Virus record (IMG/VR): IMGVR_UViG_3300035698_020985
Location: 1 to 25,371 of that record
Strand: one strand, 5' to 3'
DNA from: a virus
DNA length: 25,371 bases
The first letter of the stretch is position 1; every line of letters starts with the position of its first letter. The position numbers and the translations under genes are program-made. Below the pieces are notes generated by a model, which saw only the letters and a program-made list of their open reading frames with translations, was not told the DNA's origin and did no database searches. This document shows positions 1 to 24,609 of this stretch, piece after piece.

Positions 1-1224
1 ACCATCCAACCGCAACTCGCCGTTCGTTCCACCCGCTGCCGCCAAGTCGATCAAAAAATTGTTTACTTCAGCAGAACTCAACCCAAGATTTTGGAGATAA
101 ATAAAGTTCAAACTCCATGCTGGCAAAGTGGTTGCGTTGTACACAAGATTCTGGCCAACGTTGTCGTACATATAATACCGCAACAAGTTGGTCATTGTTT
201 TCAACGCCCCGATATCTCCAGTGACTTGTGTCTCGAAGAGATAAAGTTGGGCCATGTTTGTCAATCCAGAAAGCGAAGCAATGTCCCCAGACACGTCGGT
301 GTAGTGCAAATAAAGTTGGTTAAGCACTGACATACCAGCAAGACTAGCAATGTCCCCATATACAGACCCACCTTGCGGCGATTGCATACGCAACCGCACC
401 ATATTTGTATTGCCGGAAAGATTGGCGATGTCGCCTTCAACGGAATTATTTTTCAAATACAGATGGGTCAGTGTGGTCAGCCCACTAAGGCTCGAAAGAT
501 TTCCAGACATGGCGGCGTTTTCGGCAAGAAATTGTCTCAAGACTGTGCATCCAGCGAAAGAACCAATGTCGCCAACAATACCGGCGTGCATTGGGGTATT
601 CAAATTTACCAATTTGGTGAGCCCAGAAAACACAGAAACATTACCAGAAATCATGGTGCCCCCAGCATGGAACCTTATCATATTTGGGAACTTCGAAAGC
701 GCCGAAATGTCCCCAGTCATGCCGGTATTGTAAATCATCATGTACGAAAATGCCGGGTCTAGTTTGTCTACCATGTCGCCAAGGTCGCCATAAATCCATG
801 CCTGATTTATTATAGACAGGTACTTCATATTTTCGAGACTGCCGAAAAGGTTTATTCCATACTGTCCAGTTGCGCCATAGTTATGAATGTACGTGTGCCA
901 AGCCCCATCACAAATCGCCGGTGTCGTTGTGCTGTCGCCCCAATCAATGTCAACAGCGGGTGTTCCACCGGACGCTATTGCCATCTTGATTGATGTGGCG
1001 TTCAAGGTGGATTGGTCGGTATAGCATAGCGGGGCCGCACCGATTTCCACTTTTACTTGGTCACCAGCGCCTCTCTTGAAAGCCAAATAGGGCGTGTCTG
1101 AGTCATCGGAATCCATCCAAAGGCCCAAGTCCCCAACGCGCTCAAGTGTCGGCTCAGCCGCCTGGGAATAGGGTCTGATGGGGGGTATCACCGGGCCTGT
1201 CTCATCTACGTATTTGACGGTCAA
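1..1224 (-). CDS. Leucine-rich-repeat surface/adhesin protein, 3' end outside window
   Basis: An uninterrupted minus-strand frame of 408 codons runs to base 1 with no stop, so the gene continues past the left edge. Residues about 70-130 hold a PKD-like element (VDIDWGD, then HTY and GQYGINLFG), the type often placed before BspA-like leucine-rich repeats. From about residue 130 there are eight or more repeats of 22-26 residues with the pattern L..LSGLTNM..LYL.....VSGDI; the GDI/GNL/GNV codons recur near bases 706, 639, 566, 499, 428, 350, 283 and 211. LRR solenoids bind proteins or glycans, so a virion-surface receptor-binding role is inferred from this fold and from the tailspike just upstream. 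The start is uncertain: TTG at 1224, two bases after the previous stop and behind a purine-rich GAGAGGCGGG, is preferred to GTG at 1251, which has no ribosome site. LRR family is fairly sure; function is not. Confidence 0.8.
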   Translation of the reverse strand, partial: MTVKYVDETGPVIPPIRPYSQAAEPTLERVGDLGLWMDSDDSDTPYLAFKRGAGDQVKVEIGAAPLCYTDQSTLNATSIKMAIASGGTPAVDIDWGDSTTTPAICDGAWHTYIHNYGATGQYGINLFGSLENMKYLSIINQAWIYGDLGDMVDKLDPAFSYMMIYNTGMTGDISALSKFPNMIRFHAGGTMISGNVSVFSGLTKLVNLNTPMHAGIVGDIGSFAGCTVLRQFLAENAAMSGNLSSLSGLTTLTHLYLKNNSVEGDIANLSGNTNMVRLRMQSPQGGSVYGDIASLAGMSVLNQLYLHYTDVSGDIASLSGLTNMAQLYLFETQVTGDIGALKTMTNLLRYYMYDNVGQNLVYNATTLPAWSLNFIYLQNLGLSSAEVNNFLIDLAAAGGTNGELRLDG

Positions 1225-1225
1225 C

Positions 1226-2743
1226 TTAATCCCGCCTCTCGACTCGAACACCGTTGGCAACGTTCACAGCGAGATCACCGTCAGACCCAAAATCAGTTGC
1301 CCAGGTAAGCACAGATGCACCGTCATTTATTGTCGCATCGCCAGACGCTCCTGTGAGCAAACAAGTATCGTCAACGGTGACATAAGAACCCATCCTGGCG
1401 TTCACACCATAACCGGTGTTGGTGCCACCACAGTCAGTGACCCGGAGTTGACAGTATGACTCGACGAGAATTCCACCCAGTGTATTCCCATCCACACTAG
1501 ACGTTCCTGTACCCCCCATCGACGCGACATAATACCCCGCCTGATTATTGCCTAGCTCACCGACATGAATTCCATAGCCCCCATTGTCTTCAAAGAACCC
1601 ACCGTCAATGTCAGCATAAAAAGGACCGTTGACCCAGATACCGTCGTCTCCGTTGCCACTCGCCGCGTACCTTTCGCCATTGAAATAATCCATACTGCCC
1701 AGCATGATCCCCGTACTGTAATTGCCGTATGCAAAACACCCGTCGAAATATCTGATGGATGGACATTTTTGAAAGACAAATCCAATCCAAGAAGTATCGG
1801 CGTAACATTCAAAAATGTTGAGTTCGTCGCATCCTTGAAATAAAAATCCGTAAGATGCAAACGCCACACCCTCAGAATAAATTCGCTGAATCGTCCCGCC
1901 GACGGTGTTGTAACAATTCACCCCATACGCAATTGAGGTATCCGTAAGATCCAATTTGAAATCCTGGATCGTCCACCGAAGCGAGTTCGATGCTTGGATA
2001 TTTTTGACGGCAATCAACGTAGTCGAGTCAGGACCGGCTGCATTCAATGTGGTTTTCTGTTCCAGAATTTCGTAGTCCTGGCCTGACGCATTCACCGCGG
2101 ACTTGCTAGTGAGTTCAATTTGTGTTTTTGTATTCGAGTATACCATCCCGTAATCCGTACCGACCTTCACCAGCTTGCCGCGCAAGTCGTTGACGGTCCA
2201 CGACTGTCCCGAGTCTTCGAGATAATATTTATCACCCGCAGTTGCGGTACCTGTCGTGGTTCCAGATGCTAACGTCGGTGCACCAAGGAGTGGTTTGATA
2301 AGCAACGACGCAGTGTCCGCTAGGTTGCGTTGTTCCAACAAAAATCCATCAAACGTAGCCTCTTCTTGGACATCGACAATGATGTCATGACCAGTGGAAA
2401 AATATGTCGGAATCTTCTCAAGTGCAGCTTGAATAGTCAGTAGCGCGTTACCAACCGATAGACCGTCGTTGCTGTCATTGCCGGTAGAGCGCACGTACAG
2501 CGTTATACTTTCACTTGTTGCACCAACCCCACTCAACAAACTCCAACTAGTAGAACCTGAATCAAGTTTACGCCAAAGCGGTTTCGGCAACACATCATCC
2601 TGCAAATAAAACGTTCCCGCTGGTGCTCCATTTACGTTTGCAAGCGCAGACGCGTTAGGATCTCCTGTGGCGTCTGTAGCACCACGAAGCATAACCGGGC
2701 GTAGTGGCAGTTCCGCGTATACAAAATCTTCAAAAGCGCCCAT
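1226..2743 (-). CDS. Parallel beta-helix tailspike-like protein
   Basis: This 505-residue protein has the look of a phage tailspike. A short N-terminal stretch (about 1-75: MGAFEDFVYAELPLRP, then FYLQDDVLPKPLWRKL) resembles virion-anchoring segments. Residues about 80-110 (LYVRSTGNDSNDGL, then ALLTIQAALEKIP) match the entry to right-handed parallel beta-helix proteins of the pectate-lyase type. The rest is rich in Gly, Asn, Asp and aromatic residues in short repeated turns such as YGFLFQGC, IGFVFQKC, TGIMLGS, DGIWVNG and YGIHVGE, as expected of stacked beta-helix coils. Such proteins bind and often cleave surface polysaccharide; no catalytic residue can be assigned by eye. Its ATG overlaps the stop of the preceding Ig-like gene by one base (TAATG), so the two are probably translated together. 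Fold call is good; the substrate is unknown. Confidence 0.8.
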   Translation of the reverse strand: MGAFEDFVYAELPLRPVMLRGATDATGDPNASALANVNGAPAGTFYLQDDVLPKPLWRKLDSGSTSWSLLSGVGATSESITLYVRSTGNDSNDGLSVGNALLTIQAALEKIPTYFSTGHDIIVDVQEEATFDGFLLEQRNLADTASLLIKPLLGAPTLASGTTTGTATAGDKYYLEDSGQSWTVNDLRGKLVKVGTDYGMVYSNTKTQIELTSKSAVNASGQDYEILEQKTTLNAAGPDSTTLIAVKNIQASNSLRWTIQDFKLDLTDTSIAYGVNCYNTVGGTIQRIYSEGVAFASYGFLFQGCDELNIFECYADTSWIGFVFQKCPSIRYFDGCFAYGNYSTGIMLGSMDYFNGERYAASGNGDDGIWVNGPFYADIDGGFFEDNGGYGIHVGELGNNQAGYYVASMGGTGTSSVDGNTLGGILVESYCQLRVTDCGGTNTGYGVNARMGSYVTVDDTCLLTGASGDATINDGASVLTWATDFGSDGDLAVNVANGVRVERRD

Positions 2744-4287
2744 TATACAGTCTCTTCCAATGTAATATAGTAAGTTCCAGTAGCATTCTGATCGACTAGA
2801 TTTTGGTCACATAACCACATATAATTCCCGGTCGGGTCTAGATTGCCACCAGAATCTACAATAGTGTACTGCCATGCTGTTGCTGTCTTATCTGCCCGGT
2901 ACGTCAATACCTGCGCTCCCAAATCGACTGCTGTCAATTTAGCAGTAGTAACCACATTTGTACCTATTGGTGACAGATGACTGAACGCAGGGAACGTACA
3001 GTTACGTGCAACGAACCCACCAAGAATATAGTTGGAATCGCCCGTAATCGTAGTTTGCGCCGTTGCAGCATTATTTGTCGCCACAAGGTTTGACCATGCG
3101 TGCGTTCCTTTTGTATCTGTGTCTGCAACATTCATTGTAGCGGTCCACGTCTTTGGGCCGCCACTAAACACACCCATAGTACCAGCACCCGGAACTTCAT
3201 CGAGTGTGGGTGCCACGTATAGATTCTGATTCGACGTAAGCGTAATTGTATAGTTTACCCCAGCGGCAGAAGATCGGAGACGGGTGTACTGCTCAGCCAC
3301 ACTAATTGTAGGAGCAACATTAGCAATCTCTAAATGATCATTATATGTAGCCGTTGCATCATTTGCAGCGCGATTTGCAACACACCGGAAATTATCTACC
3401 GAGTCATTGTATGTTCCAGCAATTCTAGTAACTACCTTTGCAGCCGCATACACAGCGGGATTTGCAGGATCAAGATCTCCGTTTTGCGATGAGTACAGTA
3501 GCGTGTCGAAATCACTAACCGCCAAGTTTACTGTAGCCTGTTCGCTGGCTTTCAATGCAGCTTGACCACCAGGGTAAACGATGGATGTAAACACGAAGCT
3601 TGGGTACGTCTGGTCAAGTACGCGTGTGTTATCTGATAGCTTGTTTGCGCCTTCTGTCCCAAACGCATTCTTTGCTACAGCCTGTGCATACACCGTGCCC
3701 GCATTGCTCGACACAGTTCCATTGAATGAAAACGTGCCATCGCCCGCAAGTGCCTGCCACGCGGATACATCAAAAATACCGTATGCGTTTAACTTGATAG
3801 AATCACCCATGCCACCATCGGTAGTACCTGTGACCTGTACTGTATCGCCTGCCTTTAGCTCTGTCTGACTTCCTGGGTAGGCACCAACAACAAATGTAAA
3901 CACAGTAGGCCCACCACCCTGAATAGAGACATCAACTGTACTGAAATTTCCATCAGTAACATTTGTTGCAATGATACCACCTGTAGGATCCACAGATGCT
4001 GCTACCCCAGAAAACCGACGTACATCGCTTGTGATTTGGCTAAGTGTTACAGATACACCGTTTACCGAAACAACCGGCTGCCACAAACTTGCGCTCCCGT
4101 TTACTTCAACGGTTACATCAACGGTAGTTGTGTCCGTGTCAATACTAGCTACAACTTTATCTGCAGGGTCCGTCCCAGCTACATATGTAGGTGTTACAAT
4201 TCCAGCAGCGGCAGGTGTAACATCAGTAACGAAAATCGCACCGACATCGCCGCCACCAGCACCTTTAAGCACTACTGATCTACCCAT
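2743..4287 (-). CDS. Ig-like repeat virion protein
   Basis: A protein of about 514 residues, rich in Thr, Ser, Val, Ala and Gly and almost without charged helices, as in strings of immunoglobulin-like beta domains on phage virions. Two segments about 100 residues apart (near residues 128 and 230) share the pattern F.F....YPG.Q..LKA....V, evidence of tandem domains. Later stretches (NVAPTISVAEQYTRLRS, then YTITLTSNQNLYVAP) continue the same style. Many phage Ig-like domains make weak contacts with cell-surface sugars. The start is taken as the ATG at 4287; an in-frame TTG at 4296 lies too close to the AGGG ribosome site. The gene is followed directly by the tailspike (TAATG overlap), suggesting they belong to one adhesion structure. 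No enzymatic motif is seen. Confidence 0.65.
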   Translation of the reverse strand: MGRSVVLKGAGGGDVGAIFVTDVTPAAAGIVTPTYVAGTDPADKVVASIDTDTTTVDVTVEVNGSASLWQPVVSVNGVSVTLSQITSDVRRFSGVAASVDPTGGIIATNVTDGNFSTVDVSIQGGGPTVFTFVVGAYPGSQTELKAGDTVQVTGTTDGGMGDSIKLNAYGIFDVSAWQALAGDGTFSFNGTVSSNAGTVYAQAVAKNAFGTEGANKLSDNTRVLDQTYPSFVFTSIVYPGGQAALKASEQATVNLAVSDFDTLLYSSQNGDLDPANPAVYAAAKVVTRIAGTYNDSVDNFRCVANRAANDATATYNDHLEIANVAPTISVAEQYTRLRSSAAGVNYTITLTSNQNLYVAPTLDEVPGAGTMGVFSGGPKTWTATMNVADTDTKGTHAWSNLVATNNAATAQTTITGDSNYILGGFVARNCTFPAFSHLSPIGTNVVTTAKLTAVDLGAQVLTYRADKTATAWQYTIVDSGGNLDPTGNYMWLCDQNLVDQNATGTYYITLEETV

Positions 4288-4323
4288 AACTGCCAATCCC
4301 TAGCTATCGTGTGTAAGACACAG

Positions 4324-5190
4324 CTAGACAAACACACTACTAAGCATACGACTCCAAAAGCCACTGGGCATAGCGGATAGCTGACGTGCGGCACGGACAC
4401 CACCAGGCATCCACTGGAACATAACCATTCCTTTAGAGCGGAACTGCTGTTTGAACTTCATAGCATTGCCATCGAATCTAGTTATCAAAGTATTTAATAA
4501 CCCTGAAATCTTACCCCAATGGTCAATAACTAAACTATTACCCCCAAGAGAATAATTGTAATCTGTATCAATCGCAAAGATACCTTGGGATTCCAGTGCA
4601 GCTATTACAGCAGCATCCGTAAGGATCATGCCGTATGGTCCCCATGGGAATGTAACAGGAGTAAACGCAGTATATGGGGGGATCAAGTTTATGTATTGTG
4701 CACCGCGCTCTAAGTAGTAAATAAGATGTTTGTCATCATATCCATAAAAGAAGTTTACTGCAGGCTCAAACTCTTCCTTATCCATATTTTCTATATCATC
4801 AGATATAGATTTTCTTGCCTTGTCCACCTGTACACGCAGTGCAGCCGCCCGCGCAAACATCTTAGATGGGGCACTCTTTACATATATATTATTTGTGATC
4901 ACATCACCAGCAAGCACACATTGCCACGACGCAAGGTATTCAGAAGGATATGCAGCGGTGTCCAGAGAATATTGATAAACACCGCAAGCTGCACGCGTGA
5001 TTCCAACGCCACCAGTACTGTCAAACGTAGTCGAAACTTTTACAGTGTCGTCTCCTATATAAATGAGATTGAACGTACTGGTACCAACAACATCGACAAG
5101 TTCCTCTGTTTTCGGATCTCGTACAAATGTTGTAAGTAATTCAGTAGTTCCCTTTCGCAACACATCAAAATCGGTAAAAGATTGAGGCAC
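4324..5190 (-). CDS. Unrecognised virion-associated protein with N-terminal beta domain
   Basis: A 288-residue protein starting with GTG behind a good ribosome site (AAGGAG, five bases away). Residues 1-105 look like a beta-sandwich adaptor: DFDVLRKGTTELLTTFVRD followed by a strand-rich segment ending TNNIYVKSAP, the style of N-terminal domains on phage baseplate and fibre-associated proteins (BppU-like). Residues about 106-145 are a basic/acidic helix (ARAAALRVQVDKARKSISDD). The C-terminal half has aromatic clusters (FFYGYDDKHLIYYLERG, PPYTAFTPVTFPWGPYGM) and ends in a hydrophobic helix. It lies between the acidic protein and the Ig-like protein, so a connector, baseplate or neck role is plausible. 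I do not recognise the family with confidence. Confidence 0.6.
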   Translation of the reverse strand: MPQSFTDFDVLRKGTTELLTTFVRDPKTEELVDVVGTSTFNLIYIGDDTVKVSTTFDSTGGVGITRAACGVYQYSLDTAAYPSEYLASWQCVLAGDVITNNIYVKSAPSKMFARAAALRVQVDKARKSISDDIENMDKEEFEPAVNFFYGYDDKHLIYYLERGAQYINLIPPYTAFTPVTFPWGPYGMILTDAAVIAALESQGIFAIDTDYNYSLGGNSLVIDHWGKISGLLNTLITRFDGNAMKFKQQFRSKGMVMFQWMPGGVRAARQLSAMPSGFWSRMLSSVFV

Positions 5191-13956: not shown

Positions 13957-14591
13957 AAGAGAACCTCTCGAAATGCAGCATGCGTTTGCGGATACGTTTT
14001 GTATTTTCGAAATAGTGTCTGTACTACACGATCATAATCCCTACACATCCAATAATACTTGCTTGTAGTAAAATATCCTGCTAAATTCTTTGCATCCGTA
14101 CAAGCATTGTACTGCGTACCACCAAAAAAACTGTGCAAAATCATATTCATAGCGTAACCGCTAGTCTCAATACGGGTTCTTCCAGGGGATCCCCACGGGG
14201 CTACACACACCAAGAAAGCTAAAAAGAACAAAAAGTAAAGATTAATGAACGCAAACAGTGACAATAAACTAAACACTGCTAGTATTTGTGGAAAAAGATA
14301 CTTAAACTTATATAGTGATGTGTTTGCTTCATCACACATGTGCACAAACTCATGGGCACACACAACAAGCGCTGAGTGTGGGTTAGACTCAATATAAGGC
14401 TGTGTGGGCACATACACAGTAGTACCGATAGTAGTTATGTACCTAGTCATAAACCCCTTATTAAAGAAAAGGATAAGCCCCAGAAATCGCATAAACATGC
14501 TTTTATCTTTTGCTTTTATTTTCGCATTCGGAAACCGTGCAAGAACAACATTATCCCAAAAAGAATAGAACTGGTATATAGTAACGTTCAT
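13926..14591 (-). CDS. Membrane-anchored HEXXH zinc metallopeptidase
   Basis: 221 residues. The motif HEFVH at 80-84, preceded by hydrophobic LVVCA, is a standard HEXXH zinc site; E142 in RTRIETSGYAM is a plausible third ligand, as in gluzincins (M48-like). Residues about 99-132 form two hydrophobic membrane helices (YLFPQILAVFSLLSLFAF and INLYFLFFLAFLVCV) between the motif and E142. No N-terminal signal peptide is evident. The ATG overlaps the amidase TGA by four bases (ATGA), so the two are co-translated. An envelope or processing protease that aids lysis, or acts on host membrane proteins, is possible. The exact family is not recognised. Confidence 0.75.
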   Translation of the reverse strand: MNVTIYQFYSFWDNVVLARFPNAKIKAKDKSMFMRFLGLILFFNKGFMTRYITTIGTTVYVPTQPYIESNPHSALVVCAHEFVHMCDEANTSLYKFKYLFPQILAVFSLLSLFAFINLYFLFFLAFLVCVAPWGSPGRTRIETSGYAMNMILHSFFGGTQYNACTDAKNLAGYFTTSKYYWMCRDYDRVVQTLFRKYKTYPQTHAAFREVLLWLKSHVSAK

Positions 14592-15106
14592 CCGTAGATA
14601 TCCTTTACATGTTTAGCAATAGATACTTGAAGGTCACTCAATGAAAGATTATCCTTTAGATATTGACGAAATAACATCATTGGAATGTTGGGGCATGTCT
14701 TGGACGTGTGTGGATCCTCATAGTGACCCAGCACATCATTCAGTGTAAGATCAAAATGGGTAGTCAGGTTCTTCAATAGTGCTTTTGCTGTTTCGAGTTG
14801 TTTGTCCGTGAATGCTTTTTTACCAACCAAACAAATTCCAATAGAACTGCTATTTCTACCGGCAACGTGAGCACCAGTTTCACTATCGTCAAATAGCGGG
14901 TCATCATCGAGGTGTCGCCCCGCTTCGATTTGGCCATCCAAAAACTCCCAATAATCAACATCAGCAAAGGGTCTACCATTCAAAATTATGTAATGGTAAC
15001 CAACTGCTGCCCAACCGAGTTTCTTATGCCACTCATCAAAAATCAAAACGCTACCCCAAGGGGTAGCTGAGCAATGCACGAAGATATTTTTCAATCTCCC
15101 AGCCAT
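14588..15106 (-). CDS. T7-lysozyme-like N-acetylmuramoyl-L-alanine amidase (endolysin)
   Basis: 172 residues, complete. The zinc ligands of the amidase_2/PGRP family are in place: H11 (FVHCSAT), H128 (LGHYEDP) and C138, with the catalytic Tyr (GYHY, Y38) and K136 (SKTCP) spaced as in T7 lysozyme (H17, Y46, H122, K128, C130). The enzyme cuts the amide bond between MurNAc and the stem peptide, releasing progeny phage. No signal peptide is present, so it needs a holin or similar for export; a holin candidate lies at the right edge. Its T7 counterpart also inhibits host-type phage RNA polymerase, but no such polymerase is seen here. It follows the portal gene after 10 bases and runs into the metallopeptidase. 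Confidence 0.92.
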   Translation of the reverse strand: MAGRLKNIFVHCSATPWGSVLIFDEWHKKLGWAAVGYHYIILNGRPFADVDYWEFLDGQIEAGRHLDDDPLFDDSETGAHVAGRNSSSIGICLVGKKAFTDKQLETAKALLKNLTTHFDLTLNDVLGHYEDPHTSKTCPNIPMMLFRQYLKDNLSLSDLQVSIAKHVKDIYG

Positions 15107-20228: not shown

Positions 20229-20825
20229 TTAATCATCTTTCTTTTCGGACCTTTTTCTAGAATAAGATCGTTTAGACTTTTCTTCTTTATCTTTCTTTTT
20301 GGAACGCTTGCTAGAGTAAGATCGTTTCGGTTTGTCTTCTTTCTTATCAATAATTTTTTCAACTGGATCTTCTTTCTTATCAATAATTTTTTCAACTGGA
20401 TCTTCTTTCTTATTTATAATTTTTTCAACTGGATCTTCTTTCATAGGTTCAACCTTAGTCTGCGGTTTTTTATACTTTTTATCTGTTGGTGCTTCTTTAT
20501 CCTTTAAATCAATCACTTTTGGTTTTGCTTGTAGTTTTGCAGTGGATTTAGGAGCACCTGGCTTTGGCATAGCCTTCGTAGCTGGTGCGTTGGGGCTAAT
20601 AACTGTAACCTTCTTAATTGGGGCTTTCGGAATTGCCACTGCTGAATCGTGCACTAAGTGTAGCGCATTAACAGCAAATAAATGCTTTAGCACCACGTTT
20701 GCGTTTATCCATTTGCGTGAACAGACCGTATCCAAATCAACCGTTTTCCCTGATGTCAAAGTAATACTTCCCTGCATTAAATCAATAGGAAGGTTACCTG
20801 GAGTCATATTTTGAACTTTATACAT
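20229..20825 (-). CDS. Low-complexity protein with small N-terminal domain and tandem repeats
   Basis: 198 residues, ATG behind AGGGG. Residues 1-61 make a small beta-rich domain (MYKVQNMTPGNLPIDLMQGS, then TVDLDTVCSRKWINANVVLK and LHLVHDS). From about 65 the chain is Pro/Ala/Lys-rich, including PKPGAPKSTAKLQAKPK. From about 125 it holds 11-residue repeats EDPVEKIIDKK (three copies) and then KRSYS.KRS.KK motifs twice, ending in a very basic tail. These parts are probably disordered and could bind nucleic acid. The gene sits between terminase and the DUF192 gene, 11 bases from the latter. Not recognised. Confidence 0.65.
   Translation of the reverse strand: MYKVQNMTPGNLPIDLMQGSITLTSGKTVDLDTVCSRKWINANVVLKHLFAVNALHLVHDSAVAIPKAPIKKVTVISPNAPATKAMPKPGAPKSTAKLQAKPKVIDLKDKEAPTDKKYKKPQTKVEPMKEDPVEKIINKKEDPVEKIIDKKEDPVEKIIDKKEDKPKRSYSSKRSKKKDKEEKSKRSYSRKRSEKKDD
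20335..20443 (-). repeat. 33-base tandem repeat in coding sequence
   Basis: Three head-to-tail 33-base units (20335-20367, 20368-20400, 20401-20433) and a partial fourth (to 20443). Units 1 and 2 are identical; unit 3 differs in a few bases. Each encodes EDPVEKIIDKK or IINKK in frame, so copy number can change without a frameshift. Confidence 0.9.
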
Positions 20826-22865: not shown

Positions 22866-23418
22866 CTTTTTCTTTCAGTTTATCTTCAATCGGATAGCGT
22901 GGCTCATACGCATAGGACTGCTTTTCTACGTAAGACATTTTTCCTATTTTAAAAGTGCGAATACCGCCACTTTCTAAATCATAAGCAAATAAAATTGTTT
23001 CTCCATTTTTAGTTGTAATTTTGTATGGCTCTGCATTCCGAGAAGATTTGTTATTGTCAGAAGCTACATAATCAAAACTAAGAACCGAGGTTTCCTTCAT
23101 AGATTTTCGAATTACTGCTAAGGTAGAATGCATCGATTCCTTTTCTAAAGGCTTTTGTCTTGGAGATTCTGGTTGATCAGACGCTCGATCCCTAAGCGTA
23201 ATCATTGAAAGTTTTTTAACTGGTTCTTTTTTAGACGTGGTGGTTTCCGGTAACTTAGTGAACGTGCTTATTGATCCGCACTTTCGGCACGTAAATGTAG
23301 TTCTGTCTTTTTCTGGCTCAGTTAATTCAAGTTTATTGGACTTACAGCTAGGGCATACTTTACCTACCTTAGCTAACGCTTGGCGGTTTTTAGATCTTTT
23401 ATGGTAGATATAGGTCAC
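22858..23418 (-). CDS. Zinc-ribbon plus WYL-domain protein
   Basis: 186 residues, GTG start with AGGTGAG five bases before. Residues 20-50 are a C4 zinc ribbon (C22/C25 in VCPSCKSNK; C44/C47 in FTCRKCGS). A disordered linker (about 55-95) leads to a C-terminal domain (96-175) with the WYL pattern: VIRKSMKETSVLSFDYVA, EPYKITTKNGETILFAYDLE, GGIRTFKIGKMSYVE. WYL domains sense nucleic acid or small ligands and are common in transcription and defence regulators. The GTGA overlap with the RmlA-like gene and the eight-base overlap with terL tie all three together. A regulator of late genes, packaging, or host DNA-damage response is possible; the target is unknown. Confidence 0.8.
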   Translation of the reverse strand: MTYIYHKRSKNRQALAKVGKVCPSCKSNKLELTEPEKDRTTFTCRKCGSISTFTKLPETTTSKKEPVKKLSMITLRDRASDQPESPRQKPLEKESMHSTLAVIRKSMKETSVLSFDYVASDNNKSSRNAEPYKITTKNGETILFAYDLESGGIRTFKIGKMSYVEKQSYAYEPRYPIEDKLKEKDE

Positions 23419-24167
23419 TTAGTCTCACCTGACATCATTTGATTTGCAAACCATAAACTTGAATGTGTGCCAGCATCTGTCCAGCCCTTTTCCATAGTCG
23501 AATATTGCAGTTCACCCCATTCCAAATATTTGTTATTTACATCAGTAATTTCAAGTTCACCTCTACCAGAAGGCTGTAGAGAATCAATTATATCAAAAAC
23601 TTTTTGATCATAAAAATAAACTCCAGTAACAGCAAAATAACCTGTGTACTCGTTATTGTCATGTAACCTATTCAGTTCCGCTGCATCTGGTTTTTCAACG
23701 ATCTCTCTAATTCTCTTATCGTTGTCGGTTACAGCTATTCCAAATCTGTCCAAATTAGAAACAAGTTTCAAAATTATTCTGGCACCACGTTCCTGTTTAT
23801 TAAATTCATTAGCCCAAAGAGTCAAATCATCTTCAAATATATTATCTCCGAGAATAACACACATGCGCTCACCATAGCAAAACCCACGAGCCAAGCCTAG
23901 CGCTTGTGCAATGCCCCCCGCATCATCTTGGACCTTATAGGTGAATGTACAGCCAAAGTCCTTCCCAGAGCCCAGCGTTTGGACGATAGACCCCATATGA
24001 TCGGTGCCGGTTACAATAAGAATGTCTGTGATTCCTGCCGCTACCAGTTTCTCGATAGGGTAGAAAATCATAGGCTTTTGGCCCACAGGTAATAAATGCT
24101 TGTTCGTGCAGGTAGTTAAGGGAAGTAGCCTAGTGCCATTGCCCCCTGCCAGCAGAATACCTTTCAC
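23415..24167 (-). CDS. Glucose-1-phosphate thymidylyltransferase-like sugar nucleotidyltransferase
   Basis: 250 residues from the preferred GTG at 24167, six bases after GAGG; this gives KGILLAGGNGTRL, the normal start of RmlA-type enzymes. An in-frame upstream GTG/TTG-started extension to 24239 reads through the previous stop region and is rejected, and the ATG at 24173 abuts its ribosome site. Motifs: LAGGNGTRL (6-14), K23 in TNKHLLPV, LGDNIF (D108), VEKP (158-160), RGELEITDVN (202-211) and WTDAGTHSSL (D231). The family joins a nucleoside triphosphate to glucose-1-phosphate, the first step to dTDP-rhamnose and related sugars. No rmlB, C or D is present here, so it would feed a host pathway or glycosylate a virion or host part. 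Slightly short of the usual 290 residues. Confidence 0.88.
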   Translation of the reverse strand: MKGILLAGGNGTRLLPLTTCTNKHLLPVGQKPMIFYPIEKLVAAGITDILIVTGTDHMGSIVQTLGSGKDFGCTFTYKVQDDAGGIAQALGLARGFCYGERMCVILGDNIFEDDLTLWANEFNKQERGARIILKLVSNLDRFGIAVTDNDKRIREIVEKPDAAELNRLHDNNEYTGYFAVTGVYFYDQKVFDIIDSLQPSGRGELEITDVNNKYLEWGELQYSTMEKGWTDAGTHSSLWFANQMMSGETK

Positions 24168-24176
24168 TTGCATCCT

Positions 24177-24188
24177 CTTTTCGTTTCG
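24177..24188 (-). promoter_or_regulatory. CGAAACGAAAAG leader element, copy 3
   Basis: Identical to the copies at 5851-5862 and 7558-7569, lying directly after the stop of the signal-peptide protein and 9 bases before the GTG at 24167. Confidence 0.5.
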
Positions 24189-24189
24189 A

Positions 24190-24609
24190 TCACTTAACCA
24201 AATATACAACCGTGACTGTTGCGGCTGTTCCCAGCACAAGGCCAGCGGAAAACCACATATATTGATTATTATACCAGGCGTCCTGGTTAGTTATTTCTTT
24301 TTGTAATCTGACATTCTCTGTAATTAGAAATTGCTTTGTTTCCAAAAGAGTAAAATTTGCTGACGTTAGTGTAGCGATTTCTGCGTCTTTGATCTTCACA
24401 AGATCTTTGAATTTAGTTATCTCTAGTGTTAATTTAGGAAGATCTATTCGGTATTGCAGTAATGTTTGTGCATCCGCAGGAAGGAATCCTACATATTCTT
24501 TTCCGTCTATCTTACAGTTTTGAATATCGAGGACAGGGGGATCATCTGCCAATGCAGTACAAGGAAAAATGCAGGTGAAAATCAAAATGAAAAGTAACGC
24601 CTTGCGCAT
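24190..24609 (-). CDS. Signal peptide, coiled coil and C-terminal TM protein (spanin-like)
   Basis: 139 residues, ATG behind CAGGT. The first 22 residues are a signal peptide (MRKALLFILIFTCIFPCTAL, cut likely after ALA before DDPP); the Cys in it does not match a standard lipobox. Residues about 50-105 are a charged, heptad-like coiled coil (RIDLPKLTLEITKFKDLVKI, ENVRLQKEITNQ) and the last 25 are a TM segment (WFSAGLVLGTAATVTVVYLV) ending in Lys. An N-terminal export signal, periplasmic coiled coil and C-terminal TM is the topology of a unimolecular (T1 gp11-like) spanin, which fuses inner and outer membranes at lysis; that needs a lipid anchor, which is unclear. It is preceded by a second TM plus coiled-coil protein one base upstream, so the two may work as a pair. 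Confidence 0.6.
   Translation of the reverse strand: MRKALLFILIFTCIFPCTALADDPPVLDIQNCKIDGKEYVGFLPADAQTLLQYRIDLPKLTLEITKFKDLVKIKDAEIATLTSANFTLLETKQFLITENVRLQKEITNQDAWYNNQYMWFSAGLVLGTAATVTVVYLVK

Follow-up and report, generated by a model that had tools for sequence, protein, structure and literature searches.

At the left edge of the window, by which we mean the whole 25,371-bp stretch analysed here (the linear IMG/VR record IMGVR_UViG_3300035698_020985), a leucine-rich repeat (LRR) gene directly follows a gene for a spike, raising the question of how the LRR protein is built and what it could do for the phage. We therefore characterized its domains, its neighbouring genes, and its relatives in other phages.

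Gene frame and domain order

A preliminary description of the DNA had proposed a 408-codon open frame at this edge, with no strand named, and the frame was confirmed on the minus strand, as were all window features given below. It runs from a TTG start codon at 1224–1222 to base 1 (1..1224) and contains 408 codons and 0 stops. Because the record is linear and the frame is open to base 1, the contig edge truncates the gene. The sequence AGGCGG lies just 5' of the TTG, which starts one base past the TAA stop codon of the spike gene (1226–1228). The protein opens with a short leader and a module of ~47 residues; a linker then leads to a PKD-like element, after which come nine LRR units and the beginning of a C-terminal cap. 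The assignment of the gene was based on the open frame, a match to LRR_4, a period test, and a table of the units. The suggested extension of the contig to find the stop codon did not succeed: no overlapping or closely related contig was found with the LRR protein among the viral contigs or with the PKD–LRR part among the bacterial genome contigs, and neither set contained a close homologue with the exact module–PKD–LRR architecture.

The PKD-like element (..DIDWGD..HNYGATGQYGINL..) spans residues 91 to 135 (820..954). A profile built from the PKD elements of five other phage proteins scored 23.8 bits on it, compared with a best score of 12.2 in 2000 shuffles, which upholds the earlier proposal of a PKD-like element; Pfam PKD gave no match to the element at E ≤ 1. 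At the other end of the protein, residues 375 to 408 (1..102) form the start of the cap and are truncated by the edge. Four further phage PKD proteins, with the window sequence left out, supplied the C-terminal caps for the cap profile, whose positions 2 to 34 of 61 matched residues 375 to 407 with 18.8 bits (best of 2000 shuffles, 10.3). This match places the natural end of the protein probably ~27 residues past the contig edge, for a probable full length of about 435 residues. A scan of the viral contigs with the C-terminal cap returned no matches, although the contigs L037 and L045 and two cyanophages carry the cap.

Sequence and predicted fold of the LRR units

Nine LRR units of 23 to 28 residues, opening with GDI, GNV, GNL, or GDL, occupy residues 146 to 363 (136..789) and were defined by LRR_4, the period test, the unit table, and a structural model. 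The preliminary description had given at least eight units of 22 to 26 residues; the count holds, and the length range was slightly narrow. Pfam LRR_4 matched with an E value of 1.4e-8 (35.2 bits against a cut-off of 27), and the autocorrelation at a lag of 23 residues gave a mean BLOSUM62 score of +0.35, compared with a maximum of −0.05 over 1000 shuffles. In a phmmer search, the protein matched LRR proteins of solved structure, namely the plant LRR receptor kinase MIK2 (2e-14) and internalin B (~1e-6). No Pfam match to LRR_5 or DUF285, the BspA-type LRR families, was found in the protein at E ≤ 1. A tblastn search of isolated phages with the LRR protein gave weak matches (best E value 4e-4), nearly all to unannotated records labelled Listeria phage.

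The first AlphaFold2 model, computed from the single sequence with no homologues, was poor (pLDDT 51). A second model of residues 75 to 408, built on three sequences (the window protein and two helper sequences), reached a pLDDT of 68 and a pTM of 0.68, with a pLDDT of 80 to 90 in the central repeats. It aligned with LRR ectodomains with Z scores of up to 23.3 over 294 residues (rmsd 3.8), and among the structure matches listed, all of the top entries were LRR proteins. The residues after the PKD-like element are thus predicted to adopt an LRR-type solenoid fold, as had been proposed earlier.

The suggestion that the repeats expand or contract to change host range found no support at the DNA level. 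TRF detected no tandem repeats in the gene at a minimum score of 30, and the best pair of units was 64% identical in DNA; ongoing expansion or contraction is without support because the units are no closer than this, and we discarded the idea that slippage of the repeats switches host range. The proposed comparison of repeat number was possible for distant homologues only, with nine or more units in the window, roughly four in L037, and none clear in L045. The GC3 of the LRR gene was high (0.53) and the same as that of the capsid gene (0.53), so base composition gave no sign of a recent import.

The N-terminal module ends its protein in ten other contigs

Residues about 15 to 62 (1037..1180; YSQxxEPTL..WxDxxDSDxxYLxFxRGxGDQVKVE) form a module that ten viral contigs also carry at ≥55% identity; two of these contigs contained the same ORF. 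The module consensus is VYSQDxEPTL..KMAIWIDTDDSNRVYLIFRRGxGDQVKVEL (window 1180–1037, minus strand; L047–L056). In all ten well-matched contigs the module was the end of its protein, followed by 0 to 2 residues, and the proteins bearing it were otherwise unrelated, including a collagen-like protein, a 1174-residue protein, and small stand-alone proteins. Among the cases found, only the window had in-frame sequence after the module. In the nearest relative (L004/G003, portal 90% identical), the module is a stand-alone gene of 76 amino acids right after a homologue of the window spike; in L019, a 37% homologue of this spike is followed by the bare module. A search of isolated phages for the module yielded nothing convincing (best E value 0.2 over 32 residues), and no match to a named family was seen. 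The module may represent a widespread domain of fibre tips or caps. Since it ends proteins elsewhere and is continued in frame only here, the LRR part looks like an in-frame fusion onto the module; in the simplest reading of these sequences, a PKD–LRR gene was joined in frame to a module gene beside the spike gene.

Neighbouring genes and the variable region

The gene preceding the LRR gene (1226..2743) encodes a beta-helix spike of 505 amino acids (NosD, E value 2.6e-5; Beta_helix, 1.7e-4), in agreement with the tailspike that had been described as the neighbour of the LRR gene. Next to it lies a gene for a 517-amino-acid protein of the phiKZ gp145/PhiPA3 gp165 type (2743..4296; phrog_15433, E value 1.7e-77). 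This gene had been labelled Ig-like in a row of spike, Ig-like, and LRR genes; the gene order stands, whereas the label does not, as the protein belongs to a family labelled tail sheath. The PHROG label is itself doubtful, because the PhiPA3 homologue gp165 adjoins tail-fibre genes and because relatives of the phage have a separate sheath-like gene (phrog_2839, E value 1.6e-5; L020:16626–17987). A composite adhesion device, as proposed from this row, is suggested by the gene order only.

The capsid, portal, and terminase genes group the phage with uncultured contigs (L002–L015) and, more distantly, with virus Rctr197k and Bacillus phage G. The last conserved gene before the region that varies among these phages is g4 (4324..5190), a connector-like gene with a weak connector match (phrog_17327, E value 0.01) that is 54 to 85% identical in relatives. 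The window has the phiKZ gp145-like gene, the spike gene, and the LRR gene after g4. In the six relatives that reach that far, roughly 1 to 12 kb of sequence, different in each, separates g4 from neck-like genes and a sheath-like protein; the neck and sheath gene order past the window edge is taken from these relatives only. The stretch in relatives includes other surface-type proteins, one of which has a G8 domain. Because the stretch after g4 differs across relatives, the region appears, from sequence comparison, to behave as a swap site at which surface proteins are exchanged wholesale between related phages. The spike–module pair of the nearest relative is located elsewhere, near 73 kb of G003, which would fit a movable pair. 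Among 14 portal relatives, most of whose contigs are fragments, no LRR protein was found by protein search except for the module in G003, and LRR_4 was found in none; the phiKZ gp145-like gene was likewise not detected in the 14, many of them fragments. Large ORFs in the variable region of relatives (L021–L022 and L027–L028) begin with signal-peptide-like sequences, which is odd for virion proteins.

Comparison with other solenoid proteins

LRR solenoids had been called uncommon as receptor-binding modules of phages, and this statement needs correction, as cultured phages already provide cases of LRR-type proteins: S-CBWM1, S-SKS1, a Klebsiella P2-like tail protein I, in which LRR_5 was found, and pir03. 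The putative tail protein gp104 of S-CBWM1 and the PKD domain-containing protein SWZG_00142 of S-SKS1 resemble the window protein in having a WGD-type PKD element, solenoid repeats, and a C-terminal cap whose first part is matched in the window. However, their repeats are DUF285/BspA-like, they have no end-cap module, and their hosts are cyanobacteria, whereas the window protein combines plant-type LRRs with the module. The S-SKS1 protein was a phage match of the window model, and its gene has the portal gene on one side and the prohead protease gene on the other. Beyond the window, a GDI-type LRR was found only in IMGVR_UViG_3300005613_000454 (L037:3038–4366), which shares the PKD element, GDI-type repeats (GDIASLAGM..), and, as far as the window reaches, the cap; there, an unrelated protein encoded in a head–tail gene cluster, after a probable capsid gene (labelled by eye), carries the PKD–LRR–cap part as an extension, with roughly four repeats compared with nine. 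In L045, it is yet another protein that precedes a PKD element and a cap, and no clear LRR separates these two; the gene lies just before genes for an S49-type protease and a probable capsid protein (labels by eye).

Repeat solenoids also occur in tail genes, as in tail protein I of Klebsiella phage ST16-OXA48phi5.4 and a tail protein of Escherichia phage ESCO5, but these have BspA-type repeats, other anchors, and Big_2 where the window protein has PKD. ORF 287 of Vibrio phage pir03 contains a BspA-type solenoid (PMC7765460); it is similarly a repeat solenoid in a phage protein and differs in its repeat type and anchor. Internalins (InlA and InlB) and the plant receptors MIK2 and RGFR1 have LRR solenoids with LxxLxxLxL..xGxI units as in the window; they are cellular proteins with known ligands, and only the fold and the repeat pattern are common to them and the window protein. 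The class of phage LRR solenoids is thus already known, with the plant-type repeat being the rarer form among the cases seen, and the LRR add-on represents an uncommon variation on a type of part that a few other phages also have.

Proposed function

We favour, with a probability of roughly 0.6, the reading that the gene encodes a virion-surface adhesin, in which the module seats the protein, the PKD–LRR–cap part is fused behind it, and the LRR grips the host surface beside the spike. The first ~60 residues correspond to the module that ends phage fibre-like proteins elsewhere and would most likely dock the protein on the neighbouring spike or on a fibre. Behind the module, sequence and model show a PKD-like element, a predicted solenoid with nine or more turns, and a C-terminal cap cut by the edge, added by what looks like an in-frame fusion. 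The PKD element would space the solenoid, whose concave face, judging from the fold class and the gene order, may recognize a protein or a glycan, either of the host or of what surrounds it; such binding would help to keep the particle in place as the beta-helix spike acts on surface polysaccharide. A fusion of this kind would mean that an entire LRR ribbon can be acquired by phage surface proteins through fusion to a small end-cap module that otherwise unrelated phage proteins carry.

Distinctly less probable is a second reading, in which the protein is a decoration-type adhesin that tethers the particle to mucus, biofilm, or polymers in the environment, a role already suggested for Ig/PKD proteins on phages, instead of binding a receptor of the bacterial host. 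This reading is plausible because several PKD–solenoid–cap relatives (S-SKS1, L045, and L037, the last two with labels assigned by eye) are encoded in head or head–tail clusters and because modular adhesins of the Ig/PKD type can attach to epithelium: adherence to epithelial cells rose when Ig-like and PKD-bearing proteins were displayed on a phage (PMC13370021), a result that also fits the favoured reading. The position of the variable region, after a connector-like gene here and before neck-like genes in relatives, is also compatible with it. However, with a beta-helix spike as the immediate neighbour and a module that is found at the ends of fibre-like proteins, a tail or neck spike fits better than a capsid face. 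If a missed stop codon or a frameshift in the assembly had fused two separate genes, one for the module and one for the PKD–LRR part, the module would end its protein here as it does in all ten relatives, and a PKD-repeat gene does lie two genes after the module in L030. We regard such an artefact as unlikely, given that the frame is clean across the module–PKD joint and that the error would have to be one wrong base that abolished a stop codon or restored the frame. Least probable of all is a non-virion protein made in the infected cell and directed at the host or displayed on the cell. Some large variable-region ORFs of relatives do start in a signal-peptide-like manner (L027:13156, L027:15450, and L022:5764, judged by eye), but the LRR protein lacks such a start; it begins with the fibre-end module, and its gene comes immediately after the spike gene.

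A more specific form of the host-surface adhesin is a two-ligand adsorption device, in which a protein-binding LRR of the plant-receptor type sits on a spike tip module beside a glycan-directed spike and serves as a swappable cassette; we offer it as a speculative and rather improbable proposal. If the LRR does bind a host protein, it would represent a modular phage recognition scaffold and a tractable system for studying the acquisition of new binding folds.

Other genes in the window

An Amidase_2 gene (14588–15106; E value 8.1e-14) lies among the head genes, adjoining the portal gene, and is kept in most relatives, with no match in L007, L008, and L010. A sugar-nucleotidyltransferase-like gene (23415–24239; RfbA-like by eye) near the terminase gene has no match in L005 and is kept in L007, L009, L011, L014, and L015. 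The gene at 20229–20825 encodes a protein with a tandem KEDPVEKIIDK repeat.
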